Source: Methanomassiliicoccaceae archaeon (GTDB taxonomy: Archaea > Thermoplasmatota > Thermoplasmata > Methanomassiliicoccales > Methanomethylophilaceae). Taken from it: a stretch of DNA of 64,000 nt. The notes under the pieces were generated by a model, which ran no database searches, had not been told where the DNA came from, and saw only the letters and a program-made list of their open reading frames with translations. The DNA lies in assembly GCA_034928305.1 (NCBI GenBank), contig JAYFOZ010000003.1:1-64000 (forward strand). The letters run 5' to 3'. Each line of letters opens with the position of its first letter. Position 1 is the stretch's first letter. Shown one piece after another: positions 9,199 to 29,980 of the stretch. Both the position numbers and the translations under genes were made by a program.

Positions 9199-9286
9199 CG
9201 TGGCACAGAGTTGTTCAAATGAAATAAAGATAGTCCCTTGGGACAACGACGGGTACTTAAAATATCCTTACAGACATGCGGACATA
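9199..9286. promoter_or_regulatory. Divergent promoter region with 12-bp inverted repeat
   Basis: This 88-nt spacer serves the TPR gene (minus) and the AAA ATPase gene (plus). TATA-like boxes sit at 9221-9229 (minus, 27 nt from its ATG) and 9255-9266 (plus, 26 nt from its ATG), so both transcripts look leaderless. Between them, at 9233-9244, is GTCCC-TT-GGGAC, a compact dyad placed where one bound protein could control both directions. Confidence 0.45.
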
Positions 9287-10360
9287 ATGAAGATCAGAAC
9301 GATAACGGTTTACGGGCTCTTCGACGAATGCGACTGCAGCGTCAGTCTCAACCCTGGGCCTGTGACCTTTATCTATTCGACGAATGGGTTCGGCAAATCG
9401 ACCGTCATGAGATCGGTCGTCGCCCTGCTCAGAGGGGAGTTCGACGTACTTTCACGCATGCCCTTCGAGAGGATGGATGTTAATTTCTCCGGCGATACGA
9501 CGCTTATCGTCGAAAACCGCAACGAAATTAACGTCCTCATACAAAAGAACGAACTCGAACAGACGATAGAAGAAGCAGAGCTGCACAGATTGTTCCGGGT
9601 ATCGTACATCCCGCCGGAGAGACAGTCGGTCAGGAGGAAGGACGGGCATGTTGTTCCCGCCATTTCGGTGTATGCGGCCGAGATAAAGGACCGCATCAGA
9701 TATGCAAAAGAGAACGGCAACCTTTTGTTACCTACGGATTCTCAACGCCTCAATCTGTCGGACGGAGACTTCGTGCTCCTCTTTAAAGACCTCAAAGCCA
9801 AGTTGGATTTCATGAAAGGGGCCGGACTCGAGCCCGAGATGCCTTCCGGCCTTCGCTTCCCGCCCGAGCGCCACGACCTGACATCCAGAAAGAGGCAGGA
9901 TTATCAGAATCTGGCCTTCGGTCTTAGCGAATATATCAGAAGATTCTACCGGCTCGCAGAATCCATAGTCGTATTCAAGGATATCATCAACGGTCTTTTG
10001 ATCGGAAAGAACATCGAGATAAACGAAAAAGACAACCTGACCGTAAGGCTCAACAGCGGTAAGGAACTGCCTTTGATCTCGTTGTCCTCGGGAGAGAAGC
10101 AGATCATGGTGATAATATACCGCCTGCTTTTTCAGACGGAAAACAGTTCCCTGGTGGCCCTCGACGAGCCCGAGAACTCCTTGCATGTGGAATGGCAGCA
10201 GAAGCTCGGGAACATACTCGTTGATCTGGCGAAGCTTAGGGACCTTCAGTTCATCATAGCAACCCACTCGCCTCAGATAATCCATGACAAATGGGATATG
10301 GCAAGGGAGCTGAAAGCTAACAATGCGGGATACACTGACGCCGGCAGACATTGCGAATGA
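9287..10360 (+). CDS. AAA/ABC-type ATPase, AriA-like subunit of a putative PARIS-type defence system
   Basis: 357-residue SMC/RecF/OLD-like ATPase: Walker A in STNGFGKSTVMRS near residue 35, ABC signature LSSGEKQIM near 265, and Walker B LVALDEPENSLH near 288, followed by the H-loop region (IATHSPQ). The short middle section has little coiled coil. The ATG at 9287 has a TATA box 26 nt upstream. The longer frame to 8891 overlaps the antisense TPR gene and is rejected. The next gene, a DUF4435 protein, overlaps its end by 38 nt. An AAA_15/AAA_21-type ATPase followed by a DUF4435 TOPRIM protein is the known architecture of PARIS (AriA-AriB). Membership is inferred from architecture only; the ATPase is on the short side. 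Confidence 0.8.
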   Translation: MKIRTITVYGLFDECDCSVSLNPGPVTFIYSTNGFGKSTVMRSVVALLRGEFDVLSRMPFERMDVNFSGDTTLIVENRNEINVLIQKNELEQTIEEAELHRLFRVSYIPPERQSVRRKDGHVVPAISVYAAEIKDRIRYAKENGNLLLPTDSQRLNLSDGDFVLLFKDLKAKLDFMKGAGLEPEMPSGLRFPPERHDLTSRKRQDYQNLAFGLSEYIRRFYRLAESIVVFKDIINGLLIGKNIEINEKDNLTVRLNSGKELPLISLSSGEKQIMVIIYRLLFQTENSSLVALDEPENSLHVEWQQKLGNILVDLAKLRDLQFIIATHSPQIIHDKWDMARELKANNAGYTDAGRHCE

Positions 10361-11189
10361 GATATCGATGCTGATGTCTTCCGTCGAGGATACCGTCCTC
10401 GTTGTCGAGGGGGTAACAGACAGCAGGCTCTACGGCAAGTTCAGCGATAAGGATCATGTGAAGATAGTCGTCGGTCATTCCAAAGACAACGTACGGAAGT
10501 CCGTCGACGAGTGTTGGAGCAGACGCGGCCTGATAGCGATTGTCGGCATAGTCGATTCCGACCTCGACAGGATCGTGGGCAAAAAACGGTCTCCTCCTAT
10601 TTTTCAGACCGACCGGCGCGACCTGGAGATGATGATGATCGGCAGCCCGGCCCTCGACGACATATTGTGCGAATATGCCGATGCGTTCGCCCTAGAGGAC
10701 TTCGAAAGTAAATACGGCCCGATTTTCGACGCCGTAGTGTCGGCGTGCTATCCTGTGGGCCTTTTGATGTACATCTCGGACAGGCTCAAGCTGAGCCTAT
10801 CTTTCAGGAACCTCGACTTCGAGAGATTCATAGACCGCAGGACGCTCCAGGTCGACATCAAACAACTTGTGAACGAGGTCATCAGCTCGACCATGAACGT
10901 CTGTATCGGCAAGAACGAGCTTCTTCGCCATGTAACGGAAGAGATGACGGAAGATCGTGACCCGATAGATTTTGCCAGGGGACACGACGCGGTAGAGGTC
11001 CTTCTCATCGGCCTGAAATATATTTTCGGCTCGTTCAACAGCAAGAACCTGCGCGAAGGCGAGCTTTCCGGATCTCTGAGGCTGGCATTCAGCGACGTTT
11101 ACTTCCACGGCACAGACCTGTACTCCGATACAAGCGACTGGGCGAAGAAGCAGTGTTTCAAACTGTGGTCACTCAATCTTAAGGTCTGA
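10323..11189 (+). CDS. DUF4435 (TOPRIM-like) protein, AriB-like putative effector nuclease
   Basis: 288 residues. The N-terminal half shows a TOPRIM-like pattern: DTVLVVEGVTDSRLYGKF near residues 23-41 (glutamate after the first strand) and GIVDSDLDRIVG near 80 (acidic DxD). It then has RDLEMMM near 98, as in DUF4435 proteins. In PARIS, AriB is a DUF4435 nuclease released by AriA on sensing a phage anti-restriction protein. Family knowledge supports a toxic nuclease role, but this protein is untested. It starts inside the end of the ATPase gene (38-nt overlap), which predicts coupled expression. Its 3' end overlaps the convergent xseB gene by 21 nt. Confidence 0.8.
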   Translation: MRDTLTPADIANEISMLMSSVEDTVLVVEGVTDSRLYGKFSDKDHVKIVVGHSKDNVRKSVDECWSRRGLIAIVGIVDSDLDRIVGKKRSPPIFQTDRRDLEMMMIGSPALDDILCEYADAFALEDFESKYGPIFDAVVSACYPVGLLMYISDRLKLSLSFRNLDFERFIDRRTLQVDIKQLVNEVISSTMNVCIGKNELLRHVTEEMTEDRDPIDFARGHDAVEVLLIGLKYIFGSFNSKNLREGELSGSLRLAFSDVYFHGTDLYSDTSDWAKKQCFKLWSLNLKV

Positions 11190-11402
11190 CCTCTTGACGC
11201 CTTCGGATGTTTCCGTTATCTTCTGCACTCTGCGTTCGCTTTCCTCGAGTATCTTCTTGCAACGGTCCCTGAGCACGGTCGCACGTTCGTAGACCTCCAA
11301 ACTTTTGTCAAGATCGAGTGTGCCGCTTTCCAGTTCCTTAACCAACGCTTCGAGTGCGGTGATGCATTCCTCGAAGTTCATTTTTCCAATATCTTCATTC
11401 AT
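11169..11402 (-). CDS. xseB: Exodeoxyribonuclease VII small subunit
   Basis: 77-residue helical protein with the XseB pattern NFEECITALEALVKELESGTLDLDKSLEVYE, which forms the hairpins that coat XseA. It overlaps the end of xseA by 8 nt and, on the opposite strand, the end of the DUF4435 gene by 21 nt. ExoVII degrades single-stranded DNA from both ends. It is bacterial in distribution, so an archaeal copy suggests old lateral transfer. Confidence 0.92.
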   Translation of the reverse strand: MNEDIGKMNFEECITALEALVKELESGTLDLDKSLEVYERATVLRDRCKKILEESERRVQKITETSEGVKRSDLKIE

Positions 11403-12729
11403 CGTACTTCACCTTCCTGACCTCCGCATCGGCCCCTCCGTCGCGGAACGCGATGGATATCATCGATCCCTGCGAAAGAGACTTGGCTGACGTTAAAGTA
11501 TGACCGTCCTTGTCCGTCACATAGCTGTATCCCCTTTCCAGGACACTGCGCGGGTTAAGGGCGGACGACCTCTGATCTATCGCATCGAGCTTCGACGCGG
11601 CATCCTTGATGCGACGGTCGATGGCCAGCGTCATCCTTCCCGAGACGAACGCAAGGCGTTCGCACAGCGATGAGACTCTGCTCGAAGCGGCGGCCGGCGA
11701 TATCTTGGACTCCACCGAGTTGAAGCGGGACCTCATGCCCTGTACAGAGGACCTTAGGGCTGCATCGGCCCTGTCCGAGAGCTGTCCCACGCGGATCTCC
11801 AGCATTGAGAGTTTCTCGTATTGGCGCGATATCTCCAATTTTGACGCTGCCATATCGACACGCGAGCGCATTTTAACCGCTACGTGGTCAAGCGCCCTGC
11901 CCACGCGTATTCCGAACCCGTCCACCTGTTTGATGACCTCTCGCTTGTCGCGGAGCGCCATCTCTGCGGCCCCGGTCGGCGTCGGAGCCCTCACATCGGC
12001 AACGAAATCGGCTATCGTAAAATCAGATTCGTGACCGACTGCGGAAATGATCGGAGCTTTAGAAGAAGCGATCGCCCTAGCGACCTTCTCCTCGTTAAAG
12101 GCCCAGAGGTCCTCGATGGACCCGCCTCCTCTTCCCACGATGATGACGTCCACTTTTTCTCGGTTGAGGGCCTCGATCCCCCTTACGATGGATTCGGCTG
12201 CGCCTTCTCCCTGGACCTGGGCGGGCGCAAGCAAGATGTCTGCGGGAAAAAGCCTCCCGGACGTTGTAACTATATCATGGATCACCGCTCCGCTCTCCGA
12301 TGTGACGACGCCTATTGTCCTGGGATATACTGGAAGCTTCCTTTTTCTGGAAACATCGAAGAGACCCTCGCTCTCCAGCTTCTTCCTGAGCTTCTCGTAC
12401 TCTAGGAATAAGTCGCCTATTCCCGCACGGTTCATCGTCTCCACGATGAACTGGTAGCTGCCTTTGGCGACATACAGGTCGACGTGTCCGAAGGCCATGA
12501 TCTTCGTATTGTCCTGGGGTTCGAAATCTATCCTCCCCCTGGACCCTTTGAACATGACGGAACGTATTTCGCTGCCTTCGTCCTTGAGCGTGAAATAATA
12601 ATGGCCGCTGGAGTATAGCTTGAGGTTCGATATCTCGCCAATGACCCAGACATCCTTAACGGCGGGTGATTCCGACAAAATGGAACGCACCCTTGTATTA
12701 AGCTGTGTGACGGTCAGCCTGTCTGCCAT
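11395..12729 (-). CDS. xseA: Exodeoxyribonuclease VII large subunit
   Basis: 444 residues, the normal XseA length. The N-terminal OB fold (SNLKLYSSGHYYFTLKDEGSEI) is followed by the catalytic domain with the invariant strings VIIVGRGGGSIEDLWAFNEE and SAVGHESDFTIADFVADVRAPTPTGAAE. A long coiled-coil region and a C-terminal segment (LERGYSYVTDKDG) complete the family architecture. The ATG at 12729 follows a GGGGGTT string that can act as SD. The small subunit follows with an 8-nt overlap. It is divergent from the hotdog thioesterase across 92 nt. All recognisable catalytic regions are intact, so the archaeal enzyme is probably active. Confidence 0.95.
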   Translation of the reverse strand: MADRLTVTQLNTRVRSILSESPAVKDVWVIGEISNLKLYSSGHYYFTLKDEGSEIRSVMFKGSRGRIDFEPQDNTKIMAFGHVDLYVAKGSYQFIVETMNRAGIGDLFLEYEKLRKKLESEGLFDVSRKRKLPVYPRTIGVVTSESGAVIHDIVTTSGRLFPADILLAPAQVQGEGAAESIVRGIEALNREKVDVIIVGRGGGSIEDLWAFNEEKVARAIASSKAPIISAVGHESDFTIADFVADVRAPTPTGAAEMALRDKREVIKQVDGFGIRVGRALDHVAVKMRSRVDMAASKLEISRQYEKLSMLEIRVGQLSDRADAALRSSVQGMRSRFNSVESKISPAAASSRVSSLCERLAFVSGRMTLAIDRRIKDAASKLDAIDQRSSALNPRSVLERGYSYVTDKDGHTLTSAKSLSQGSMISIAFRDGGADAEVRKVKYDE

Positions 12730-13256: not shown

Positions 13257-13702
13257 CCGATAGAAAATGTCCGGAATGCGGGGAGATAGTTCCGTCCCTG
13301 AGCGTGACGTGCCCCAAATGTTACAGTTCGGTCCCTAGGACCGATGATGTGCCAGATAAAAAAGAAACTTCGTCATCGAAGGACAATGACCGAAAGGCGG
13401 GCGACAAAAGCATATTGATAGCAACACTGCTTGCCGCAATACCCGGCATATTCGGCCTTCAGGGCCTGGGAAGGATATATTTGGACTACCGGAGCGAAAA
13501 AGGATGGTTCTTCCTCGTCTTCGGAGCTGTGCTGTTCGCCCTCATTTACCTGTGCATAAATTGGTGGGATGTGGCCGGTTCCTTCACGAGAGTACTGTTG
13601 CTCCTGGCATTGGCGATCCTTGTCATGCTCTACATATCTTCATATCTGGCACAGTTAGCGGACGCCCACTTTGGATCTGTCTTCAAAATGTTCCGGTTTT
13701 AA
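13253..13702 (+). CDS. Zinc-ribbon membrane protein with TM2-like region
   Basis: 149 residues. It begins with a zinc ribbon (CPECGE ... CPKC, two CxxC pairs within the first 24 residues), then a charged, Ser/Lys/Asp-rich linker to about residue 50, then three hydrophobic segments. The first of these contains GIFGLQGLGRIYL, reminiscent of the TM2 domain loop, and the other two are near 82-100 and 107-130. No enzymatic motif is visible. The stop overlaps the convergent DnaQ-fold gene by 4 nt. Confidence 0.75.
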   Translation: MTDRKCPECGEIVPSLSVTCPKCYSSVPRTDDVPDKKETSSSKDNDRKAGDKSILIATLLAAIPGIFGLQGLGRIYLDYRSEKGWFFLVFGAVLFALIYLCINWWDVAGSFTRVLLLLALAILVMLYISSYLAQLADAHFGSVFKMFRF

Positions 13703-14253
13703 TAAAGACCATGGGAGCGAAGCACGACGATCATCTGCGAGGTCATCTGTGCCAGATCCAGAGCTCTTCTTCCATCCCCTATACCTGCGGGGTCGCCGGG
13801 ACAAATTACCGAATAAGCATATCTTATTCGTTCGTTAAGCGTTTTTCCGGGTTCAGACATTGCGTTCCTGGGTATCCTGCGCGAAACAGAAGGCATCACC
13901 GACACCTCGTGTGTAAGGTCCCAAGGTTCGTAGAGCAGATATTTACCGAACACCTCGCCGATATCGAAACATGCAACGTCATTGCCGTTGAAGATCTTTT
14001 TTACATACGTTGCGACATCCATGACCGGAGAACCGAGATAAAGCTCCCGGACATCCATGCCTGAGGTTGCAGAAAGCCAGTCCAGCGAGGACTTTCCGAT
14101 GTCCATCGGATCCAATAGGACAACATCGTGGTAGACGGTATCGAAATCCTTGTATCCGGGATCGACACGGCAGATCCCTATCTCGGCCACCACGTTCTCC
14201 GGATATCCTTTCTCGCCGTCTCCGTTGATTTCTACAACGTATAACTCCGACAC
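13699..14253 (-). CDS. DnaQ-fold exonuclease paralogue with lost catalytic residues
   Basis: 184 residues from a GTG at 14253, or 206 from the ATG at 14319. I prefer 14253 because AATTAATTAC lies about 26 nt upstream and the protein then starts, like its paralogue, right before the first strand. It aligns by eye over its full length with the gene at 22538-23143 (shared: xxCRVD, GKxL-YEPW, GDPAGI). The DEDDh residues are gone: paralogue DTE is EIN here, the NxxYD aspartate is Val, and the terminal His of HRAMSD is Arg. It is therefore predicted to be a non-catalytic binding protein. It is divergent from the AddB-like gene. Confidence 0.75.
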   Translation of the reverse strand: MSELYVVEINGDGEKGYPENVVAEIGICRVDPGYKDFDTVYHDVVLLDPMDIGKSSLDWLSATSGMDVRELYLGSPVMDVATYVKKIFNGNDVACFDIGEVFGKYLLYEPWDLTHEVSVMPSVSRRIPRNAMSEPGKTLNERIRYAYSVICPGDPAGIGDGRRALDLAQMTSQMIVVLRSHGLY

Positions 14254-14363
14254 GCAACCCGCATTGCTACGACAGTAATTAATTCCGCCGATTTTCCCCG
14301 GCTGAGGGTCATTGAGCATTGGTATGGAAAGAATTACTATCTCCCGACAGATATGGGGGTCAG

Positions 14364-17057
14364 ATGAACAGGTCCAAGAGCATCGATGAAATATACGAAG
14401 AGGTGAGGGAATACGATATCGTCATAACGAACGATGCTCCGCTCGCGACCGCCCTAAATGCGCGTATAGACCGACCTACCGTCGGAGGCTTTGCATACAC
14501 GCCGAGGCAGCTGGCGGCCGACCTTTCGATTCAGATACTTGGCGAACCGCTAAGGAGCGACCTTGACGTCGTTGCCACCGTTTCCGATGAGACTGGTTAC
14601 GGGTTCAAGTATGTTCATGGCGAAATCGAAAACATAAGAAACATAAGGAAATACACATCGGACGTCGAAAAATACCTGTACTCGCGCCTGTCCCGCAACA
14701 TCTACAATTCTTACAGGGTACTTCCGACGATAGAAAAGGCAATGGACATCTTTGTCCCCGAAACATACCATGAGAACAGCAGGCACGGGTACGTAATTTC
14801 CGATAACATGTTCGCCGGAAAAAAGACGGCCGTGATCGGGATAGAATTCTTCGACGACCTCGACAAACATTTCATACCGATAAAGCACGAGGAAATCGAA
14901 ATAGCCGTTCAAGATGAGGATTTCGAGATCGGCGAAATATTCGAGATAGGCAACGACAGGCAGATCGCCGAGAACATCATCGACCTGATCGACTCCGAAC
15001 GCGCCACGGACGTAGCCATCGTTATGGATACGGAGAGCGGTATCGCCGATGCCGTCCGCGCCGCTTTGTATAGGCGCGGAATACCGTTCAAGAATACTAT
15101 GGCCGTCCGCGATCTTTCCCAGATAAGGGACTATCTGCGATTCCTTAATCTGGGCGCATCATACGGAACTGTCAGGGTCAGACATGTGAGGGAGCTTTTC
15201 TCCGCTTACAAGGGCACCATAAAATCCAAGCATGACAACGTGCTCCTTTCCAGGCTTCCGGAGATCGGAGGAAGGGCGCTGGAACTTGCGGAATGTATGA
15301 AGAACCTGGAAAAAATGACATTCCTTGAGGTCTGCGACCTGGTGGTGGGCGAACGGCACAGGCCCCAGGTCCATATCCTGCTTGAAGAGCTGAATTTTAC
15401 AGAAAAGAAAGTGACTCCGCAGCTGATCGGAGAAATGAACTACGCCGTGAACAACGTATCCGAGCTCCACCACAATGAGCAGATACCCGACAGCGAAAAG
15501 AAGGGCGTTCTGTTGGCCGACTGCCACCGCTCCATGTTCGTCGACCGTCCTTTCGTCGCGTTCCTCGGAATGGGGGAGGAATGGGGCAACAAGATAATCG
15601 GAAGGCAGTATATCGATAAAGAGGCCGAGGCGGAGATGGACGCAATGAAATTCAGAGTCCTTCTTCAGCAGGGGACATCCCGCATCTATGCCGTGAACAC
15701 CACAAAGAACGGTAAGGCCGCCCGTCCGACCTCGCTGTTCGACGGTATCTGCAAACTTGAGGGCAAAGTGCACTCCATCACCGGTTTCGGGGACATTGCC
15801 CAGGTAAGGAAAGGGTCGTGGTACAAAGAAGAGCCCGAGATCTTCCCCTATAGTGGCTCCGAACCCGTAGATTGTGGCGCCGACTGTGGTTGGAAGTTTA
15901 CCAAATCGTCATACAACAACTACTGCGAGTGCCCCCGTGCATTCTATTATGGAAATCTTGTTACAACGCCGGACAACGAGCATACCGCTTTCGGCAACCT
16001 GCTGCATGAGTTCGCCGAGATGTACGTCTGTTATCCCGACCATGTTAGAAAAAGAGGCCTTGAATATTATGCAGAGCGTATAGGCGAAACCTACGCCGGC
16101 CTGTCGTGCCCCCTCATGGAGAACGTGGATATGGACCGCATACGCGTTGCCCTGAGAAACCTGATCGCCTTCATAGATGTCCAGAGACGGGAACCTGTCC
16201 CCTTGGATATGAAAAACACATCGCGCAAGTATCCAAACGGCCTTATGGAATCAGAAGGGCTTGAGATGTGCAGCAGTTACGCCGAGAGGGACATGACCTC
16301 TTCCGAATATCCGATATACGGCAAGTTCGACCTCCTGATCGGCCCCTGCTCGATCGATTACAAGACAGGGAAATACAATTCGGAAACCGAGGTTGTCAAA
16401 GGTCTCGATCCGGAGAACAAAGGCTACATGGAAACTCAGCCGATGATGTATCTCGCGCTCATCCCAGAGGCCGGGACGGGAGGAACTCCGGTTTTCCGCC
16501 TTTTCTTTATATTTGGCACCGACGGACGTGTCAAAGAAGGAACCTCCGTGCTTGACAATAAAGTGGACGTGCGTCTGCTGAAGGAAACAAAGATGGAGGC
16601 GCTGGCAGACCCGAATTCACCTCCCAGGGAGGATTTCGAGGGCGTAACGTCCTATGCCGAGATGTATGAAAACTGGGATTCTTTCATATCGCCGATACTG
16701 TCGTCGGGTCTTTCTCCAGAGAATTGGGAAAATGACGGAGTGCTTATCGATTCCATATTGTCATCGTTAAGATTGACATCGAACAAAACAAACATCAAAA
16801 AAGTCGTTGGCGCTTTGAAGAGATTAAAGAAATTTTCAGAGCCCGACTACTGGGCATGCGAAGGAGAGGTCTGCATCCCATCCGACTCCATGGGCAGATT
16901 CCTCGAGAAACTGTTGGATGATCACGCAGCCGCTTCGAAAAAGATGAGGTCCAGATTCGCCCCGGAACCGCGCATGGATTGCAGCAGATGCAATTTCATT
17001 TCTGTTTGCACCCGCGAGCCTGTTATCGCAGAAGAGGAGGGCGAAGAAGATGTCTAA
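14364..17057 (+). CDS. AddB-like Fe-S PD-(D/E)XK nuclease with degenerate helicase region
   Basis: 897 residues from the ATG at 14364, which follows a GGGGGT string. A TTG at 14319 is possible but less likely. The N-terminal 500 residues resemble an inactivated UvrD-type fold and lack a GxGKT loop. The C-terminal nuclease has YGKFDLLIG followed by IDYKTGKY near residues 650-665. Four cysteines bracket it as in AddB: one in YNNYCECPRAFYYG near 520, and three in MDCSRCNFISVC near 871-883. They predict a [4Fe-4S] staple. It overlaps the AddA-like gene by 8 nt. Likely role: end resection together with that helicase. Archaea normally use HerA-NurA for this. Confidence 0.85.
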   Translation: MNRSKSIDEIYEEVREYDIVITNDAPLATALNARIDRPTVGGFAYTPRQLAADLSIQILGEPLRSDLDVVATVSDETGYGFKYVHGEIENIRNIRKYTSDVEKYLYSRLSRNIYNSYRVLPTIEKAMDIFVPETYHENSRHGYVISDNMFAGKKTAVIGIEFFDDLDKHFIPIKHEEIEIAVQDEDFEIGEIFEIGNDRQIAENIIDLIDSERATDVAIVMDTESGIADAVRAALYRRGIPFKNTMAVRDLSQIRDYLRFLNLGASYGTVRVRHVRELFSAYKGTIKSKHDNVLLSRLPEIGGRALELAECMKNLEKMTFLEVCDLVVGERHRPQVHILLEELNFTEKKVTPQLIGEMNYAVNNVSELHHNEQIPDSEKKGVLLADCHRSMFVDRPFVAFLGMGEEWGNKIIGRQYIDKEAEAEMDAMKFRVLLQQGTSRIYAVNTTKNGKAARPTSLFDGICKLEGKVHSITGFGDIAQVRKGSWYKEEPEIFPYSGSEPVDCGADCGWKFTKSSYNNYCECPRAFYYGNLVTTPDNEHTAFGNLLHEFAEMYVCYPDHVRKRGLEYYAERIGETYAGLSCPLMENVDMDRIRVALRNLIAFIDVQRREPVPLDMKNTSRKYPNGLMESEGLEMCSSYAERDMTSSEYPIYGKFDLLIGPCSIDYKTGKYNSETEVVKGLDPENKGYMETQPMMYLALIPEAGTGGTPVFRLFFIFGTDGRVKEGTSVLDNKVDVRLLKETKMEALADPNSPPREDFEGVTSYAEMYENWDSFISPILSSGLSPENWENDGVLIDSILSSLRLTSNKTNIKKVVGALKRLKKFSEPDYWACEGEVCIPSDSMGRFLEKLLDDHAAASKKMRSRFAPEPRMDCSRCNFISVCTREPVIAEEEGEEDV

Positions 17058-19926
17058 GGAACCGAACCAGTCTCAGAAGAGCATCGCCGAGGGGCTGAAC
17101 GGCTTCTATGTAGTGGATGCAGGGCCCGGAACAGGCAAGACTTTCACGATAGTCAGCAGATATGTGAACATCCTTAGCAGGCCGGACGTTCAGACGAGAG
17201 ACATCCTGTTGCTCACATTCACCAAGAACGCCGCCACCGAAATGGAAGAGCGTATCCGCGAGAGGCTTGCCGAGGGAGACCTAGGGAAGGATACAAGACA
17301 GATACAGGCCGGGACATTCGACTCTTTCTGCTACTCGATCGTCAAAGAATCACCGGAGTCTGTCAGCGACTTCCTGGGTTTCGGCGAACGACTCACCCGC
17401 AGCGCGGCGCTTGTGGACAACGAAACGCTCAACAGAGAGTATTTCAGTGACTTCTTTGACCGCTTCAACGCCGAGCGCGGCAGCGAATACGGAGATATCG
17501 CCGTGATGGCCAGCACCATCCCTTCGGACGTGTACGCTCTTATCGGCAAACTCATGTCGAAGGGGATCGTCCCTCTCAGCAGAGGATGGTTCGGAGGAAG
17601 GGACGGCAAGGACCTTCTGGGAGATACCGCAAAGGTCCTTTCATCACTGTATAGGATGAACGGAGACTCCAAGGACAGGAATAAGCTGTTGAAGCGCATA
17701 TCCAAGATCGTCGGCGGGGGGGAGCTTATCTCTTCCGGGTTCCCGCCGGTTTCGGCGGAGGAGGAGATCCCTTCGGAGATCCTGGAATCTGCGGCCAAGG
17801 AAGACAGATCCGGGATACTGAAATTCATACATGACGTCTATTACGAATACATACGGCGTTCGGTCGCCGACGACAGGCTCACCTACGGTCTTACCTCGGT
17901 CTTCGCATTCATAATCTTATACAGCAACGCGGGCGTCAGGGAACGCATGTCCTCCAGATATGTGATGATAGATGAATTCCAGGACACAAACGAGAACCAG
18001 ATGATGATCGCACTGATGCTCCTCAGGGAGCCCAACCTCTGTGTGGTTGGAGACTGGAAACAGGGCATCTACGGATTCAGGTTCGTCTCCATCGACAATA
18101 TAATCGATTTTGAGAGGCGCGCCGTAAGCATGCGTTCTTACCTCAACGACGACATAGAGCGCATTCCATTCAGAATACCGGCCGTCACGAGGCTCACATT
18201 GGACCGGAACTACCGCAGTTCACAAGAGATAATAGATACTTCTTTTGCCGTGCTGGGTATCCCTGGTTCCGATAACGAAAAGGTATCGCTCGATCCCGCG
18301 ACCGTCACCAAACTTATGTCCGGTAACGAAGCCATCGGCAGCGACACGCACGTGAGGTTTGTGAAGACTCCGTCATCCGACCAGGCCGCGGAGACTGTTT
18401 CCAGGATCATAGATTACGTCACCGGCGAATACACCGTGCACGTCGGCGAAGAGACCAGAAGGCCGAAGTACGGCGATATCGCCGTGATATGCAAAAACAG
18501 TCGCATGTGCCGTGCCGTCTACGAAGAGGCGAAGTCTAGAGGCGTCGAAGCCTTCCTGCAGGGGGACGTGGAGATCATGTCCACCAGGGAGGGGAAGCTG
18601 CTGCTCGCATGGCTGAAATACATAAACAACAGGCAGGACCCGTGGGGGCTCGTGGGCATTCTTTCCGACATGGAATACAGTCTCGATGACATCAAAAGGA
18701 TCTTACGGCCCGACAGTGAGGGCCGCTTTGCCGATGCCCCTTCGGAGATCTCCGAATTCAGGAGGGAACTGCTTAAGAAGAAACGCAGGGTCACGGACCT
18801 TATATCCTCCGTCTTCTCGCACTACGGACTGAACAACGACGTCACGCAGGCGATAATAACCACGCTGTCCTCCGCCCACCGTTCTTCTCTGCTGACGATA
18901 TCCGACCTCATCAGGATAATCGAGACCGATATCGCAGAACACAATACGTACAGCATCGACGCGGACCTGAACTCCGATGCGGTTCTGATACAGACGATGC
19001 ACAAATCGAAGGGGCTTGAATATCCGATAGTTATAATACCGCAGCTGGACAAAGGTGTCATCCCTAATACCAGGGGCGATACCTCTGTCATCTCGTTCAA
19101 CGAGACGGACGGCGTCAGGTGCACCAAGGAACTGGTATCGGCCGACGGCTACCTTAGGACAGGGCGTTCATGGAAGACGATGCTCGTACGTGCGTCCGCA
19201 GACAAAGATTACAGCGAGGACCGTCGCACGCTGTTCGTGGCGATTTCGAGAGCTGAACAGTATATCACGATGATATGCGGCGACAGGCCGTCCAAATTCA
19301 TATCGACGTTGTCGGGAGACAGTTACGAGGAGGCGCTGGGACATCTGTCCGCCCCCGTGTCCGATAAAAAGGAACGCGTCATACGAAAACCAGAACTGGC
19401 ACCCTTCCAATCGCGTCGCCGGGTCATCGGTGTCCATGACATCATGGTCTTCAACGGTCTTTCTCCCGAGGAGGGGGCCGACGAGGTTTCGGGAAAGGGC
19501 ATGGAGTACGGAAAGAAAGTTCATGCGATCGCCGAGGGGCTTGCAAAGGGCATCGAACCGAAGGAAAGCGTCCCGGAGATACCCGCCATAAAGGAGGTCC
19601 TGGCATCCGTCAGCGGCGCAGACCTGATACTCGTCGAGGCGCACTGCCTGCTGCCTTTGAACGGCATCAACGTCTCGCTGAGCGGTTACATCGATATGCT
19701 GGCACTTTATCCGGACCGCGCTGTGGTACATGATTACAAGACGGATGTTTCAAAAAACAACCTGGAAGCATACAAGCTTCAGCTCAGCGTTTACGCTTAC
19801 GCAGCAGAAGGATTCTACAAGAGGCCGACAACATGCGTCATAGATTTCGTATCTTTGGGCGACACTGTCGAATTCGACCCTATACCCAGAGATGAAATAG
19901 AATCGGCTGTACAGATGATTTTATAA
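17050..19926 (+). CDS. AddA/RecB-like UvrD-family helicase-nuclease
   Basis: 958-residue superfamily 1A helicase fused to a RecB-type nuclease. Motifs in order: Q-like NQSQKSIAE at 6-14, Walker A AGPGTGKTFTI at 24-34, motif Ia LLLTFTKNAATEMEERI, motif II MIDEFQDTNENQ near 308, motif III GDWKQGIYGFR, motif IV LDRNYRSSQEI, and motif VI TLFVAISRAEQYI near 730. The C-terminal nuclease shows GYIDMLALYPDRAVVHDYKTD near 880-897, followed by the QLSVYAYA helix (Ql..Y motif). With the preceding gene it forms a heterodimeric AddAB-like machine. The start overlaps the stop of its partner (ATGTCTAA). Nothing is visibly missing. Confidence 0.92.
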   Translation: MSKEPNQSQKSIAEGLNGFYVVDAGPGTGKTFTIVSRYVNILSRPDVQTRDILLLTFTKNAATEMEERIRERLAEGDLGKDTRQIQAGTFDSFCYSIVKESPESVSDFLGFGERLTRSAALVDNETLNREYFSDFFDRFNAERGSEYGDIAVMASTIPSDVYALIGKLMSKGIVPLSRGWFGGRDGKDLLGDTAKVLSSLYRMNGDSKDRNKLLKRISKIVGGGELISSGFPPVSAEEEIPSEILESAAKEDRSGILKFIHDVYYEYIRRSVADDRLTYGLTSVFAFIILYSNAGVRERMSSRYVMIDEFQDTNENQMMIALMLLREPNLCVVGDWKQGIYGFRFVSIDNIIDFERRAVSMRSYLNDDIERIPFRIPAVTRLTLDRNYRSSQEIIDTSFAVLGIPGSDNEKVSLDPATVTKLMSGNEAIGSDTHVRFVKTPSSDQAAETVSRIIDYVTGEYTVHVGEETRRPKYGDIAVICKNSRMCRAVYEEAKSRGVEAFLQGDVEIMSTREGKLLLAWLKYINNRQDPWGLVGILSDMEYSLDDIKRILRPDSEGRFADAPSEISEFRRELLKKKRRVTDLISSVFSHYGLNNDVTQAIITTLSSAHRSSLLTISDLIRIIETDIAEHNTYSIDADLNSDAVLIQTMHKSKGLEYPIVIIPQLDKGVIPNTRGDTSVISFNETDGVRCTKELVSADGYLRTGRSWKTMLVRASADKDYSEDRRTLFVAISRAEQYITMICGDRPSKFISTLSGDSYEEALGHLSAPVSDKKERVIRKPELAPFQSRRRVIGVHDIMVFNGLSPEEGADEVSGKGMEYGKKVHAIAEGLAKGIEPKESVPEIPAIKEVLASVSGADLILVEAHCLLPLNGINVSLSGYIDMLALYPDRAVVHDYKTDVSKNNLEAYKLQLSVYAYAAEGFYKRPTTCVIDFVSLGDTVEFDPIPRDEIESAVQMIL

Positions 19927-19946: not shown

Positions 19947-22550
19947 ATGGCAGTCCGCGGCCTGAGCGCCGATGAGGTTAATCAGCGAAGGGCTTCAGGC
20001 TTGGTGAATACCGTCGAGTCTTCCGTAAGCCGCAGTTACAGGGATATTTTCATAGAGAACTTCCTGAACTGGTTCAACCTCATACTGATGCTGCTGGGCG
20101 TTGCACTGTATCTTCTCGAGGAATATACCAGTGCAATATCGGCCACTGGCATAATCGCACTGAACATATTGGTGTCCACTCTCCAGGAGATCAAGGCCAA
20201 ACGCAGGCTCGATAAGATCGCACTGCTGCTGAGGCCGAAGGTCATCGTCATCAGGGACGGTTTGGAGAGAGAGATCGACCAATCCGAAATTGTTATGGAC
20301 GACGTCATCCACCTGGTCTCCGGCGACCAGGCGCTGGTCGACGGCGAACTGATCGAGATGCGTTCTCTCGAGATGGACGAGGCCGCATTGAGCGGAGAAT
20401 CGAGCCCCATAAGGAAGCACGTGGGGGACACCATATTCTCCGGGTCTTACTGCGTGACGGGCGAGGCGTACTTCAGAACCACCGCCCTGGGCTCCGATAC
20501 ATATGCATCGAAGATGCTCGTCAGCGCCCGCAGCTACAAAAAGAAGAAAACTCCGCTGCAGATGGAGACGACCGCGGTCACGCAGCTGCTGATCTCCGTT
20601 GCCGCATTGATACTTATCATATACACCGTTCTGAAGCTCATCACGGGCGCCAACACGACCCTGAACGAGCTGCTTAAAACGGCCACCATAATTCTGGACG
20701 TCGTTCCGATAGCCCTATTTTTGCTTATAACTCTGACTTACATGATAGCCGCCATCCGCATGGCGGACACCGGATTGCTTCTGCAGAGGTCCAACTCCGT
20801 CGAGTCGATGAGCCATGTGAACACCGTGTGCATGGACAAGACCGGAACGATCACCACCAACCGCCTTATCTTCAGAAAGATGGACATGAGGATGGATGAG
20901 GACCGCGCCAGGAAGCTCATCAGATTGTTCGTAGGCTCCACAGGAAGCCACAACCGTACCGTGGGGGTATTGAAGAGCGAATTCGGTTCTGAAGAGAGCA
21001 ACCTGATCGAAGAGATCCAGTTCTCTTCCGAAAGGAAATACAGCGCCGTCCGGACCCAGAAGGACGGGACGGAGTATGTCGTGATCATGGGGGCCTGGAA
21101 CACCCTGAAGGACCATGTAGAGGACAAGATGGACATACAGGAGGTCATCACGTCCATGTCGAGGCAGGGGCTCAGGAACGTGGTTCTCTGCGAGGGGAGC
21201 GGCAGACTCTTCGACGGAGAGGAGCCTGTCATCCCGAACGGCCTAAGAATTATAGGAGTGGCGGCAATCGCAGACGAGGTACGTGCCGACTGCAGAGAGA
21301 CCATGGACGTATTCCTGAAAAACGGCATTGATATAAAGGTGATATCCGGGGACGATCCGGAAACCGTAAACGCCCTTTTCAGCATCGCAGAGATACCGGG
21401 AGAAAGAAGGATAATCTCCGGTGACGAGCTCGACGCGCTAAAAGGCCAAGAGAAGACGGATACGATACTGGCCACCAACATATTCGGACGTATGAGGCCC
21501 GATCACAAGGAAGTGATCATCGACACCCTCAAGCTGAACAACAGGTACGTCGCGATGGTCGGGGACGGCGTCAACGATGTCAAGGCCATTAAGGCTGCAC
21601 AGGTCGGCATCGCATTGGAGAGCGGGAGCGGCGCCGCACGCGGAGCGGCGGACATGGTACTCATGAGAGATAATTTCGCGGCCCTGCCCAAGGCCCTCAT
21701 GGAGGGCCGCAGGACCGTCACCGGGATGCGGGATATTCTCAAGATCTATCTGACCAGGAATTTCACGCTGGTATTTCTTATAGTATTTACGCTGCTGTTG
21801 CTTGGCAACTCGCCGCTGCTGCCGATACAGAACACGATGTACGCTTTGCTCACCGTTTCCATATCGGCATTCCTGATGACCCTCTGGGCCAAGCCGGACG
21901 ACAACGGAGATATGGTCCTTCCGGAAGTGATCCGTTTCGCAATCCCTTCTGCATTCCTTATCGGATTGTTCGGAATCGTCATCTACATAATTTTCTACTT
22001 CGGGACCGGGACGTTCATAAACATCGACTATCACGCCATGGCCGAATCGGCCGGAGTACCGTACATCGACCTGGTAAAATCTCTGGACCTGGCGGGAACA
22101 GACGCGACGATCGGCATGTTCGAGAACGATATACGCGAGATCAACGCCCGCAATGCAATGCTGTTCTTCATCATACTGGCCGGAATATTGGAGCTTTTGC
22201 TCGTGCACCCGATACACAGATTCCTGTCGGTGAACGAAAGAAAGGTCACAAAGGACATCAAGCCGACGCTATTGGTCATTCTTCTCCTCCTGCTGTTCTC
22301 CTGCGTCTACTTCGTTCCGGCGACCGATTGGTTCATGATCAGATACATATCGACCGCGGTGTTCCCGGCGGAATATTATATTCCGATAATCGGCCTTGCA
22401 CTGGTCTGGTTGTTCGTCCTGAGGACCGCGTTGCGCAGCGGACTGTTCTCTTCCATTTCGATCTACACCGAAACGTGGTTCAACAATAAGCTCGACAAGG
22501 AAGTCGAAAAGAGCATGAGGGAAGACAGCGCCCCGGATCAAGGCGAGTAA
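19947..22550 (+). CDS. P-type cation-transporting ATPase, substrate uncertain
   Basis: 867 residues with all P-type landmarks: actuator loop ALSGESSPIRK near 147, phosphorylation site CMDKTGTITTNRL (Asp at about 297), hinge MVGDGVNDVKAIKAAQVGIAL near 540, and membrane helices at 40-85, 210-275 and a C-terminal bundle. The helix-4 motif just before the catalytic loop reads DVVPIALFLL. It is neither the PEGL of standard Ca2+ pumps nor the CPx of heavy-metal pumps, and it recalls the CtpE branch. A 20-nt gap after the helicase gene suggests co-transcription with the nuclease operon. Substrate prediction beyond cation is not justified. Confidence 0.88.
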   Translation: MAVRGLSADEVNQRRASGLVNTVESSVSRSYRDIFIENFLNWFNLILMLLGVALYLLEEYTSAISATGIIALNILVSTLQEIKAKRRLDKIALLLRPKVIVIRDGLEREIDQSEIVMDDVIHLVSGDQALVDGELIEMRSLEMDEAALSGESSPIRKHVGDTIFSGSYCVTGEAYFRTTALGSDTYASKMLVSARSYKKKKTPLQMETTAVTQLLISVAALILIIYTVLKLITGANTTLNELLKTATIILDVVPIALFLLITLTYMIAAIRMADTGLLLQRSNSVESMSHVNTVCMDKTGTITTNRLIFRKMDMRMDEDRARKLIRLFVGSTGSHNRTVGVLKSEFGSEESNLIEEIQFSSERKYSAVRTQKDGTEYVVIMGAWNTLKDHVEDKMDIQEVITSMSRQGLRNVVLCEGSGRLFDGEEPVIPNGLRIIGVAAIADEVRADCRETMDVFLKNGIDIKVISGDDPETVNALFSIAEIPGERRIISGDELDALKGQEKTDTILATNIFGRMRPDHKEVIIDTLKLNNRYVAMVGDGVNDVKAIKAAQVGIALESGSGAARGAADMVLMRDNFAALPKALMEGRRTVTGMRDILKIYLTRNFTLVFLIVFTLLLLGNSPLLPIQNTMYALLTVSISAFLMTLWAKPDDNGDMVLPEVIRFAIPSAFLIGLFGIVIYIIFYFGTGTFINIDYHAMAESAGVPYIDLVKSLDLAGTDATIGMFENDIREINARNAMLFFIILAGILELLLVHPIHRFLSVNERKVTKDIKPTLLVILLLLLFSCVYFVPATDWFMIRYISTAVFPAEYYIPIIGLALVWLFVLRTALRSGLFSSISIYTETWFNNKLDKEVEKSMREDSAPDQGE

Positions 22551-23143
22551 GTTCCATCGCGGAACATCTGCACCAGTATGTGCGACGCGACCTTGGCATC
22601 CGACATCGCGCGGTGCTCCTGAACCCCCTCGATCCCGGCAGGGTCCCCTTCCACTATTTTTTCGTACGCAAGATCCAGCTTGGGATACTGGTACTGCCTC
22701 CCGTAATATTGGCTGGGCACCTTACATATGGGGGTGGCGGCCTTCATAATATCCGTGCACTCTGTGAAGAGGTCCTTCATGTTCCACGGTTCGTGGTAGA
22801 GGAACTTGCCCATATCATACTCCGTATTGTAAGACGTTACCCTCTTCCCCCTCAGAAGTTTCCTTACGTCGGCGACCACTTCCCGCATGGGAGGGGCCGA
22901 ATCGACCATGTCGAGCGTCATGTCCGTGTTCTCGAATATCCATGCATTGCGACGATATTCGTTCCATTCGGACGTATCGTAGCCTACCACTGAAGAATAT
23001 ACCGGTTCCACGGTGCCTTTTTCCAGGTCCACCCTGCATACTGCAATGTCGACTATGACGTCCTGGGGATGTCCTTTCAGGCCGGTGGTCTCCGTGTCGA
23101 GAACGTATATCTCGCCTGCAAAGAAATTGTCCAGCGTGCTCAT
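22538..23143 (-). CDS. DnaQ-like 3'-5' exonuclease (DEDDh)
   Basis: 201 residues with an intact DEDDh active site: IYVLDTETTGLKG near 12-24 (ExoI), YNTEYDMGKFLYHEPW near 105-120 (ExoII, Asp present) and EHRAMSDAKVASHIL near 178-192 (ExoIII, His and Asp). It is the active-looking paralogue of the degenerate protein at 13699-14253; together they bracket the AddAB-like operon. It is not part of a polymerase here and could trim DNA or RNA 3' ends. Its start overlaps the small membrane protein gene upstream by ATGA. Its stop overlaps the convergent P-type ATPase by 13 nt. Confidence 0.9.
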   Translation of the reverse strand: MSTLDNFFAGEIYVLDTETTGLKGHPQDVIVDIAVCRVDLEKGTVEPVYSSVVGYDTSEWNEYRRNAWIFENTDMTLDMVDSAPPMREVVADVRKLLRGKRVTSYNTEYDMGKFLYHEPWNMKDLFTECTDIMKAATPICKVPSQYYGRQYQYPKLDLAYEKIVEGDPAGIEGVQEHRAMSDAKVASHILVQMFRDGTYSP

Positions 23144-26431: not shown

Positions 26432-26453
26432 TTCCGTATTGTTACAGTGGGCT

Positions 26454-27641
26454 ATGTCTGACTTTAAATTCATCCACTGCGCGGACCTGCATCTGGGCAG
26501 CAGGTTCTCGGGAATAAGGTCCAGGAACGGGGACCTTGCGAAAAAGATGACGGAGTCCACATTCTCTTCTTTCTCAAGGATAGCCGACCTCGCACGTTCC
26601 GAGGACGCAGATTTCATGGTGATATCGGGAGACGTCTTCGACAAAGAGACGATCACTCCTCTGACCAGGTTCCGCTTTGCCGAAATCCTAGAAGATATGA
26701 AAATCCCATGTTTCATCGCATGGGGGAACCATGACCATACGACGAGCTGGGAGGACAGCATTCCTCTGCCGAGGAACGTCCATGAGTTCGGCGGAGAGCC
26801 CGAGCAACAGATACTGGACCTGAAGAACGGCGGTACCGTCGAGATATCCGGCATAAGCTTCACCTCAAAAAATACCAGCGAAGACCTGGCAGTGAAGCTG
26901 GACGGCAGGAAGGACATTTTCACCGTCGGATGCGTGCACTGCGACGTCGATTCCCAGGACGGATCGGGTTACGCGCCCACCCGGCTTGGCGATCTGATCC
27001 CGAAGAACATCAACTATTGGGCACTGGGTCACATCCATAAGCGCGCCGTGCTGCACGAGCGCCCTTATGTCGTATATCCCGGGAATTCACAGGGAAGGAA
27101 CATCAAAGAGTCTGGAGAGAAGGGCGCTTATGTCGTCAAGGTCGCCTCGAACATAGTCACCGAGATGCGTTTCGTGCCCACCCAGACGATGGTGTGGGAG
27201 AAGATGGAAGTAGATATCACCGGATGCGATCTGGGCTCTTTCGTCGAACGCGCTTCCTCGCTGATCGGGAGAGACTCCGTGGTGCGCCTTGTGATAAACG
27301 GGCGCGGAGTGCTCGACCGCATGCTAAGGTCCGACCCTGACGATGTTATGGAAGCGATACGTAAGAGGGCCGCCGGTACGTTGGCCGATATCGAGGTCAA
27401 CTCAAAACCGGAGAGAGCGCCTGTCGTCGGAGGGAACGACCTTGTATCGAAGGTCGCGGCCGTGTCCGAAGCGGTGATGAACATGGAAAGGAAAGACCTG
27501 ATCGAAACGATCTGCAGCACCAAGACTTCGAAAAATCACCTGCAACAATATTTCGAATCACTGAGCGACGAGGAACTCAGAAACGTCGTCAACGATGCGA
27601 AGATCAGATTGATGGAGCGTTTCTCGGAGGCGTCCGAATGA
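26454..27641 (+). CDS. Mre11/SbcD/YhaO-family DNA exonuclease (metallophosphoesterase)
   Basis: 395 residues. All phosphoesterase motifs are present: HCADLHLGS near 8, VISGDVFD near 55, WGNHDH near 90, HCDVDSQDGSGYAPT near 160 and ALGHIHKR near 190. The C-terminal third is helical and resembles YhaO rather than the long archaeal Mre11 capping region. The enzyme is expected to cleave DNA ends with Mn2+. Its partner gene starts within the stop codon (ATGA overlap 27638-27641). The pairing with a membrane-anchored ATPase is the YhaO-YhaN arrangement of Firmicutes. A herA-nurA neighbourhood, typical for archaeal mre11-rad50, is absent. Confidence 0.9.
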   Translation: MSDFKFIHCADLHLGSRFSGIRSRNGDLAKKMTESTFSSFSRIADLARSEDADFMVISGDVFDKETITPLTRFRFAEILEDMKIPCFIAWGNHDHTTSWEDSIPLPRNVHEFGGEPEQQILDLKNGGTVEISGISFTSKNTSEDLAVKLDGRKDIFTVGCVHCDVDSQDGSGYAPTRLGDLIPKNINYWALGHIHKRAVLHERPYVVYPGNSQGRNIKESGEKGAYVVKVASNIVTEMRFVPTQTMVWEKMEVDITGCDLGSFVERASSLIGRDSVVRLVINGRGVLDRMLRSDPDDVMEAIRKRAAGTLADIEVNSKPERAPVVGGNDLVSKVAAVSEAVMNMERKDLIETICSTKTSKNHLQQYFESLSDEELRNVVNDAKIRLMERFSEASE

Positions 27642-29980
27642 TCATAGAGTCAGTGCGTATCCGCCTCTTCGGAAAGACCGCGAACAAGGATTACGGTCAG
27701 ATGTTCCCGGGACTTACCGTCTATTACGGCGAGAACGAGAGCGGGAAGACCACGCTTAAGGAATTCATCAGAACCACCCTTTTCAAAACTGCAACGCGCA
27801 AGAACAATTATCCGCTGACCATGAGCACCGATTCCGGCGAGGTGGACTGCATAACCGATTCGGGAGAGAAGTTCACTATAACAAGGGCCGGCAACAAGAT
27901 AGTGTCCAGCATCGGAAAGATGCCACCGGAGATATCCGGAGTGGACCCGGACGTCTACAGGAGCGTTTACGCCATGAACCCGGACGACCTCATAGATACG
28001 GCCGTCGTCGATTCCGGCGATATCAAAAGGAAATTCCTAACGGTTCCCGGGGGAGAGAACATGCCCCAGATATCGGAATCCATAGATTGCGAGATGGAGG
28101 CTCTTCTGAATCAGTCCAAGATCACCGATTCCAGGGGAATCGGCAAGCTTAGACGCGAGATCGACGAAAACGCCAAAGCCATCGATCTAGCCAGATTGAA
28201 AGGACCCGAATATTGCAGGTTGGCGAAGGACGAGGCCGAAATAATATCGGAACTCGCTGTGCTCAGAGAGAAGCAGGCGGAAGGCGAAAAGGTCAGGGCC
28301 CGGATAAGAGCATACGGAGAACAGAAGAAGAACATGCTCGAATACGGGGAGCTGGAACTGAGCCGTAACGTTATGGGCGACGCCGACAGGGCTCCGCCCG
28401 AGGGAATGGCCAAGTACAGGGAGCTGAGGGACTCGGTCGGATTCAGGCTCGCAAAAAAAGAAGATGCCGAAAAGAAACTGGACGAGATCGGAGAAAAACT
28501 CGGAGGCGCCTCTTTCGATGCCGTAGAACGGAACAGAGCGCGCATACTGTCCCTTAACGAGAACATAGGCTCATACAGATCCGCGGCGTCCGATATGAGG
28601 GCGATCGGTGAAGAAGTTTCCATACTGGATTCGGATATCGCCTCGCTGATGGACGGCAGACTGGACGAAGATACCGCCAGGAACGCCGACACGGGCCAAG
28701 ATGTGATCGACCGGGCCTCCGATACACGGATGCCTAAAAAGAACAACGTGCCTGCCATCGTGCTCTTGGCTCTTGCGGCCGTTTCGGCCGTGGCCGCATT
28801 CGTTACGGCCGTCCCATACATTTACGTCGTCGCGGCGGTGTTCGCCGTTCTTGCGGCGGTCACCGTTCTCCGTTCCGTAAAACCTGCCGCGGACCTCTTC
28901 GACGACTACATCGTATCCCGCGGATTCCCGCCCGGTACACGCAGAGAGGAGGTCGCCGGGCTCTGTTCCGTCATAGACAGCATCAGGAGGTTGGAGGAAA
29001 AGCGCCAGTCCTACATTGGACGCGTCAGAGACATGGAGGCATCGATAAACGGATTAGATTCCGAACTTGCATCGGTAGCATCCGAAGTGGGCATCGAACG
29101 CGTTTCCTTCGAGGCCGACGTGCGCATGCTCAACGCCCTCGTCGCATCTCTCTCCGGGATAACCGATGCAGCCAAAACGGCAGAAAGTGCCCGCTCCGAA
29201 TATCTGGACGCCCGGGCCGTCCTCGACGGATACCTCGCCCCCTATGGGTCGGCGGAGGAGCTTGAAAGGATAGTGAAGCTCAAGATCGAACGGGACCGGA
29301 CCGACGAAAGGATGGATAATATAAAAACCATCTTGGGTTCGGCCGGCATCGACATGGTATCCGAACCTCCCCCGCTGCCGGACGACCTGACTGCGGAAAT
29401 CGGTGAAAAACAGATAAATCTTGGAAAAATAAGCAACCAGAAGGCCGCCATACTCAGAGACTCGGACACCGAGCGCCTCTACAACGAGAGAAGCTCGCTG
29501 GAGACCGAGCTGTGCTCGGAGAAGCGCAGGTGGGGGGTCCTTTCGTTGGAGAAACATATATCTGACGCCGCATGCGACGATATCTACGACAATATGCAGC
29601 CGCGCGTGATCCAGACCGCCGACAGATATCTGGAGATGATGACGAAGGGGATTTACCGCATGGACGGTAACCCTCGTACGAAGAATGTTTCCATACGAAG
29701 CGGGACAGAAATAAAATCTAAGGATCAATGGAGTTCCGGCCTTGCGGGGCAGGTATGCCTCTCGCTCAAGCTGGCGGTCGCGAAGGAGATGTCGGACGAA
29801 AAGCTTCCGATATTGTTGGACGATGTGTTGCTGGTGTTCGATTCGGAAAGGAAGCTCGGCGCATGCCGTGCGCTTTCCGAGGTCGCAAAGGATATGCAGA
29901 TCATATTCTTCACCTGCGACCGCGAGACATATGGATTCATGAAGCAGGTTGGAGCGAAAACGGTGGAGATATCGCTCTGA
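27638..29980 (+). CDS. YhaN/Rad50-like SMC ATPase with internal transmembrane hairpin
   Basis: 780 residues. N-terminal Walker A YYGENESGKTTLKEFI near 29-45. Coiled coil then follows, and a hydrophobic hairpin at about 370-412 (PAIVLLALAAVSAVAAF and YIYVVAAVFAVLAAVTVL). More coiled coil leads to the C-terminal lobe with ABC signature-like WSSGLAGQVCLSLKLAVA near 697 and Walker B LPILLDDVLLVFD near 725. There is no CxxC zinc hook; the membrane hairpin replaces it at the tip. Known YhaN (SbcE) proteins share this feature. It probably tethers the nuclease complex to the membrane. Confidence 0.88.
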   Translation: MIIESVRIRLFGKTANKDYGQMFPGLTVYYGENESGKTTLKEFIRTTLFKTATRKNNYPLTMSTDSGEVDCITDSGEKFTITRAGNKIVSSIGKMPPEISGVDPDVYRSVYAMNPDDLIDTAVVDSGDIKRKFLTVPGGENMPQISESIDCEMEALLNQSKITDSRGIGKLRREIDENAKAIDLARLKGPEYCRLAKDEAEIISELAVLREKQAEGEKVRARIRAYGEQKKNMLEYGELELSRNVMGDADRAPPEGMAKYRELRDSVGFRLAKKEDAEKKLDEIGEKLGGASFDAVERNRARILSLNENIGSYRSAASDMRAIGEEVSILDSDIASLMDGRLDEDTARNADTGQDVIDRASDTRMPKKNNVPAIVLLALAAVSAVAAFVTAVPYIYVVAAVFAVLAAVTVLRSVKPAADLFDDYIVSRGFPPGTRREEVAGLCSVIDSIRRLEEKRQSYIGRVRDMEASINGLDSELASVASEVGIERVSFEADVRMLNALVASLSGITDAAKTAESARSEYLDARAVLDGYLAPYGSAEELERIVKLKIERDRTDERMDNIKTILGSAGIDMVSEPPPLPDDLTAEIGEKQINLGKISNQKAAILRDSDTERLYNERSSLETELCSEKRRWGVLSLEKHISDAACDDIYDNMQPRVIQTADRYLEMMTKGIYRMDGNPRTKNVSIRSGTEIKSKDQWSSGLAGQVCLSLKLAVAKEMSDEKLPILLDDVLLVFDSERKLGACRALSEVAKDMQIIFFTCDRETYGFMKQVGAKTVEISL

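Follow-up and report, generated by a model that had tools for sequence, protein, structure and literature searches.

In AddAB helicase-nucleases the motor is AddA, and the nuclease of each subunit degrades one strand so that a 3′ overhang is left. The 3′ strand is bound by AddB, which in bacteria is also the subunit that recognises Chi; a Walker A motif is present in AddB of Bacillus subtilis and is not universal in AddB. Two related arrangements are known: AdnAB has two active motors, and RecBCD contains RecC, which lacks a live nuclease, and needs RecD. Enzymes of the AddAB/RecBCD type perform both repair and defence.

Mre11-Rad50 is called universally conserved, and HerA-NurA acts in archaeal resection (PMC7690668, PMC9960219, PMC12977600). 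An early comparative genome paper on the Methanomassiliicoccales treats replication, and nowhere in its main text are recombination, Mre11 or Rad50 brought up (PMC4153887). No description of AddAB in this order was found in the one open-access library that we searched, which is no proof of novelty. Here we analyse two overlapping genes of the family Methanomethylophilaceae in relation to these systems.

Genomes and searches

The window, i.e. the whole stretch of DNA that was analysed, comprises the first 64 kb of a contig of 153,981 bases from a genome of 1.34 Mb that is 98.9% complete. Presence and absence of genes were counted in 61 genomes, 37 from the Methanomethylophilaceae (f1; order Methanomassiliicoccales) and 24 from sister families, the other families of that order being denoted f2-f6. 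The f1 genomes are mostly metagenome-assembled; five of them (G009, G015, G020, G026 and G035) consist of a single contig. Linkage was counted in named genome records with enough flanking sequence.

The AddB-AddA gene pair

Two overlapping genes had been claimed for this locus from the sequence alone, and both open reading frames are present on the forward strand. The gene for the AddB-like subunit (protein 1, 897 aa; 14364..17057) runs from an ATG at 14364 to a stop at 17057, and the gene for the AddA-like subunit (protein 2, 958 aa; 17050..19926) from an ATG at 17050 to a stop at 19926. The addB stop and the addA start overlap by 8 nt (17050..17057, +), which suggests translational coupling, and overlap or near-abutment of the two genes is kept in archaeal and bacterial homologues. 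Position 14364 is the better addB start because, with the TTG at 14319 as start, the longer frame would extend into the divergent gene upstream. Residues of protein 1 are numbered from this ATG.

Protein 1 combines an inactivated SF1 helicase fold with a PD-(D/E)XK nuclease domain (Pfam PDDEXK_1, 1.4e-11), and outside the nuclease domain no Pfam match was found above the cut-off. Neither a Walker A motif nor a DExx box occurs in 22 homologues from archaea and bacteria. The nuclease residues H548, D656, D665-x-K667, Q692 and Y696 (16005..16451, +) are invariant in the same 22 sequences, as are four cysteines: C523 in a CPRA motif (15930..15932, +) and the C-x2-C-x5-C triad of C873, C876 and C882 (16980..17009, +). 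On the basis of the alignment, protein 1 is predicted to have a live nuclease and a four-cysteine Fe-S site. The Fe-S site is confined to the members from f1, f4, Methanomicrobia and Ignavibacteria, since the AddBs of haloarchaea and of the family f33 lack the C-x2-C-x5-C triad.

Protein 2 is a UvrD-family SF1A helicase (Pfam UvrD-helicase, 6.1e-43) with a C-terminal RecB-type nuclease (PDDEXK_1, 2.5e-5). Invariant in an alignment of 21 sequences are GTGKT, within the Walker A motif DAGPGTGKT (17116..17142, +), motif II DEFQDT (17971..17988, +), and the nuclease residues H825, D882, D895-x-K897, Q911 and Y915 (19522..19794, +). Judged by these residues, the SF1A (UvrD) helicase motifs are complete and the RecB-type nuclease is live. 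The description of the two products in the sequence-only reading, an inactive-helicase Fe-S nuclease next to an active helicase-nuclease, is thus borne out by conservation in both alignments.

Curated sequence libraries do not recognise the pair as AddAB. They place protein 2 among UvrD, PcrA, RecB and AddA with no curated equivalog cut-off reached, and the NCBIfam AddA model scores it with 124.7 bits against a cut-off of 707.65. Protein 1 is not listed for the NCBIfam AddB model, and a PDB sequence search with protein 1 or its profile returned no AddB, which was found by structure search only. For this search AlphaFold2 models of moderate confidence were used (protein 1, pLDDT 82 and pTM 0.54; protein 2, pLDDT 84 and pTM 0.69). 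The top five PDB matches of the protein 1 model were B. subtilis AddB chains (best E 1.5e-13; TM-score by query length about 0.45); UvrD, AdnA and RecC came after them. The top four matches of the protein 2 model were AddA chains (best E 2e-37; TM-score by query length about 0.57), followed by RecB. The kinship is remote because over the matches of both subunits the sequence identity is 10-16% and the query TM-scores are 0.45-0.58.

A profile-profile comparison (hhalign) of protein 1 with the canonical AddBs of sister families resulted in a match with Prob 96.6 and E 5e-10 that spans the helicase-like through the nuclease region. These canonical AddBs match the solved AddB 3u44_B at 3e-25 and also NCBIfam addB_Gpos. 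The AddB/AddA identity of the pair is upheld by the fold searches, the hhalign match and the linkage of the genes. Because the curated AddA and AddB sequence models miss the pair at cut-off, it is a distinct subtype of AddAB, compact and divergent.

Distribution and phylogeny

Protein 1 was found in 36 of the 37 Methanomethylophilaceae genomes and protein 2 in all 37, a frequency that excludes chance, and the two genes are linked in 50 out of 50 readable loci. Outside the family the compact pair occurs in one f4 genome (G039), in the distant family f33 of the same phylum, in one Methanomicrobia archaeon and in five Ignavibacteria, and in part in one Bacteroidetes bin. The compact AddB was additionally found in 33 haloarchaeal plasmid records, and AddA adjoins it in all eight that were opened.

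In the AddA tree the Methanomethylophilaceae form one clade (100/99), haloarchaea and f33 another, and Ignavibacteria a third. All compact clades lie far from the canonical AddA of the sister families, on a long branch. Within the Methanomethylophilaceae the distribution and the tree are consistent with a core gene that was apparently inherited vertically. A transfer direction from bacteria to archaea was considered and dropped: a first tree paired the Methanomicrobia sequence with Ignavibacteria, and after addition of the haloarchaea it moved beside f4 and f1. A mobile or viral gene in the f1 host was likewise rejected, as no phage or viral contig matched and the plasmid matches are haloarchaeal.

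The haloarchaeal pairs (L189-L196) reside on megaplasmids, and several have BREX-5, restriction or DNA methylase genes as neighbours; the neighbours were read in eight records, and their nearness to restriction genes is a descriptive observation. The f33 pair (L183, genome G089) has an AddB without the Fe-S triad. At L185 (genome G198) we observed a second copy in which AddA is apparently split into two reading frames and the usual neighbours are missing.

Resection genes of the host

The sequence-only reading had started from the general expectation that archaea resect ends with HerA-NurA-Mre11-Rad50. This is true in general, and the point becomes sharper here, as the Methanomethylophilaceae appear to have lost the canonical set. 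Of the 24 sister-family genomes, 22 matched an Mre11 query strongly (E 7e-94 or better); in the 37 f1 genomes similarity was absent or was of a weak, SbcD-type kind (E 3e-15 or worse), so that canonical Mre11 was found by similarity search in 0 out of 37. Full-length Rad50 was matched in 0 out of 37 f1 genomes compared to 21 out of 24 sister-family genomes. A full-length Rad50 query was used for this count instead of the Rad50 zinc-hook family, which was dropped as a presence test after it stayed silent in the Haloferax and Methanosarcina controls. While one must keep in mind that similarity searches may miss very divergent Mre11, Rad50 or NurA, the f1 loss is not an assembly gap, because the five single-contig genomes show the same absence. 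Absence in one draft is not decisive, since the sister-family genomes G050 and G055 also lack Mre11 and Rad50 matches.

In the sister families HerA, an Na+/H+ antiporter-like gene, Mre11 and Rad50 form a cluster. This Mre11-linked HerA type was seen only there and in none of the 37 f1 genomes; a second HerA-like gene is present in some f1 genera. We also observed that the sister-family cluster (L083-L090) contains no recognisable NurA. NurA (PF09376, a model that is positive in four archaeal controls) was found in 1 of the 61 genomes, and weakly. This single match, from a genome that belongs to the same genus as the window (G004:C5:167775-169496), adjoins a HerA-like ATPase and perhaps represents an accessory HerA-NurA pair.

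Other genes with a possible part in end processing lie in the window. XseA, the large subunit of exonuclease VII (11395..12729, −), is distributed in the order in the same way as the compact AddAB: it occurs in 36 of 37 f1 genomes and in G039, and the other 23 genomes contain no match above cut-off. Downstream of addA we found a divergent Mre11/SbcD-type metallophosphoesterase, YhaO-like by similarity (26439..27641, +), and an adjoining Rad50/YhaN-like ATPase (AAA_27; 27638..29980, +). G039, G053 and about 30 of the 37 f1 genomes contain strong matches to the YhaO-type gene; many of the f1 copies lie 4-9 kb downstream of AddA. As about 30 of the 37 genomes keep it, an Mre11-Rad50-like activity may persist in the family. 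In G039 the compact AddAB and XseA occur alongside HerA-Mre11-Rad50 genes, on short contigs for which mis-binning is possible.

Neighbouring genes

The sequence-only reading had the pair bracketed by a dead and a live DnaQ-fold paralogue. Both paralogues are real. The upstream gene, divergent from addB (13699..14319, −; homologues suggest a real start at a GTG near 14253), no longer encodes the catalytic residues D, E, D, H and D in nearly all copies, and only about three copies keep a part of them; judged by these residues it is a real pseudo-enzyme. The downstream gene (22538..23143, −) encodes an intact DEDDh exonuclease, which keeps its catalytic residues wherever they are readable and is regarded as a neighbour only. 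Between this gene and addA lies a P-type ATPase gene (19947-22550, +) that starts 20 bp after addA. This ATPase gene is probably co-transcribed with addA and has no evident functional tie to AddAB.

Linkage to the pair amounts to 37 of 52 loci for the upstream DnaQ gene, 19 of 37 for the downstream one and 39 of 41 for the P-type ATPase. The search for co-occurrence of the four genes thus confirmed the union of AddB and AddA and failed to confirm that of the DnaQ genes. No DnaQ gene was found beside the pair in the Ignavibacteria, the Methanomicrobia archaeon or the haloarchaeal plasmids, and these neighbours are also missing in several f1 genera. Over many genera a block is kept that consists of AriA-AriB, XseA, DnaQ, AddB, AddA, ATPase and DnaQ, followed by YhaO-YhaN. 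The order of genes in it owes no less to synteny than to function, because the DnaQ linkage is weaker than that of the P-type ATPase.

The AriA-AriB pair at the start of this block (8891-11189, +) is PARIS-like by model matches only, which cover both the AriA ATPase (PDLC04164, 4.3e-31; true start probably close to 9290) and the AriB TOPRIM/DUF4435 protein (1.2e-16). It is found upstream in the same place in 25 of 41 f1 loci. Such a fixed position is unusual for a defence system, and the pair may be a housekeeping OLD-family pair, for which archaeal Cran1 offers a comparison (PMC12796447).

Proposed role and alternatives

We propose that the pair forms a compact AddAB-type heterodimer and is probably the main enzyme for processing double-strand-break ends in the Methanomethylophilaceae, acting ahead of RadA. 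Resection of breaks is the most likely role because all parts of AddAB are present and the canonical alternatives are missing. Heterodimer formation, enzymatic activity and the role in vivo are what we infer from these genes, and the assignment of strands follows by homology to AddAB. AddA would move 3′-5′ on one strand and unwind the DNA end, and its nuclease would cut the 3′-ended strand. AddB, having no motor and a nuclease domain held together by the predicted Fe-S cluster, would scan the unwound 3′ strand; its nuclease, the second of the complex, would cut the 5′ strand. The product would be a 3′ overhang for RadA. Chi-type regulation, if any, could be a further property of the pair.

The main rival to this role is that of a defence nuclease against linear foreign DNA of phages or plasmids, with repair being incidental. 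The plasmid-borne and accessory state of the haloarchaeal homologues speaks for it, as do their neighbours, which comprise BREX-5 pglX/pglZ, a DNA cytosine methyltransferase, a type I restriction-like gene and an N-6 methylase, and also the PARIS-like pair upstream in many f1 loci. We nevertheless consider this unlikely: in the Methanomethylophilaceae the pair is a near-universal and apparently vertical core gene, whereas defence genes are usually patchy, the phages and viral contigs searched contain no relatives, and the family is without alternative canonical resection genes. A defence function would moreover not exclude repair, since AddAB and RecBCD do both jobs. An even less probable proposal, that of the sequence-only reading, joins AddB, AddA and both DnaQ-fold proteins into one resection or defence complex. 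The upstream protein, divergent beside addB in most loci, has lost its catalytic residues nearly everywhere and could be kept for a non-catalytic reason, and the downstream copy is intact; yet both are linked to the pair less tightly than the P-type ATPase, and the pair does without them in Ignavibacteria, Methanomicrobia, Haloarchaea and several f1 genera, so that we do not retain the four-protein machine. It is very improbable that a generic UvrD helicase-nuclease and a Cas4-like nuclease merely share an operon here and work independently of each other. Pfam and PADLOC do report nothing beyond generic UvrD, PDDEXK and a weak resemblance to Cas4; yet protein 1 has the AddB-like fold over its full length, unlike a Cas4 of about 200 aa, and the pair stays together in every readable locus with its overlap kept across two domains of life. 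For the same reasons, i.e. 897 aa, the AddB-like fold and the constant helicase partner, a Cas4 or stand-alone RecB nuclease lacking co-conservation with the helicase, which would have spoken against the AddAB assignment, was not what we found.

With resection by the compact AddAB as the preferred reading, a broader scenario has in our view about an even chance of being correct. The Methanomethylophilaceae would have swapped the canonical Mre11-Rad50-HerA for a bacterial-style kit of compact AddAB, exonuclease VII and YhaO/YhaN-type proteins, with AddAB passing ends to RadA and f4 (G039) retaining both sets. The family, which includes cultured human-gut methanogens (Methanomethylophilus), would then represent a natural replacement experiment, without either canonical set and with an AddAB-like enzyme. 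This would make it possible to test whether RadA can be fed by a bacterial-type resection enzyme, whether archaea can do without Mre11-Rad50, and whether they have Chi-like signals.

Comparison with known systems

The system that is expected to do the same job, HerA-NurA with Mre11-Rad50, shares no homology with the pair, and its canonical set is missing here. AdnAB and RecBCD belong to the same helicase-nuclease superfamily, and both were rejected as identities. The second motor of AdnAB is absent, as no Walker A or DExx occurs in the 22 protein 1 homologues. RecC chains rank below AddB in the structure search, the nuclease residues of protein 1 are invariant, and no RecD gene was found in the neighbourhood of the pair. 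Gabija consists of the OLD-family nuclease GajA and the helicase GajB; this candidate was discarded as well, since the GajB similarity is of the generic UvrD kind, the fold of protein 2 matches AddA first, and its partner is AddB-like and not GajA.

Closest to the pair is AddAB itself. B. subtilis AddA and AddB (PDB 3u44/4cei) are the best structural match of each f1 subunit, and they share the gene order addB-addA, the helicase and nuclease of AddA, and the inactive helicase fold, nuclease and four-cysteine Fe-S site of AddB. The f1 pair differs in its shorter subunits (897 and 958 compared to 1,166 and 1,232 aa), in the missing Walker A of AddB, in its archaeal host and in scores far under the NCBIfam cut-offs. 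The missing Walker A is not treated as defining for membership in AddAB.

Within the order, the canonical AddAB of f2 and f6 (L069-L075) likewise consists of overlapping AddB and AddA genes and has four cysteines in the nuclease. It is longer (AddB 1,039-1,048 aa, AddA mostly 1,090-1,137 aa), matches addA_Gpos up to 2.7e-121 and has a Fe-S spacing of C-x3-C-x5-C, compared to C-x2-C-x5-C in the compact AddB. It is full length in 7 out of 24 non-f1 genomes, a patchy distribution that is unrelated to that of the compact pair. The same compact pair and gene order are found in Ignavibacteria (L170-L175), in the Methanomicrobia archaeon (L174) and on the haloarchaeal plasmids (L189-L196), where AddB is devoid of the triad; in these hosts the annotation of the genes goes no further than 'PD-(D/E)XK nuclease family protein' and 'ATP-dependent DNA helicase'.
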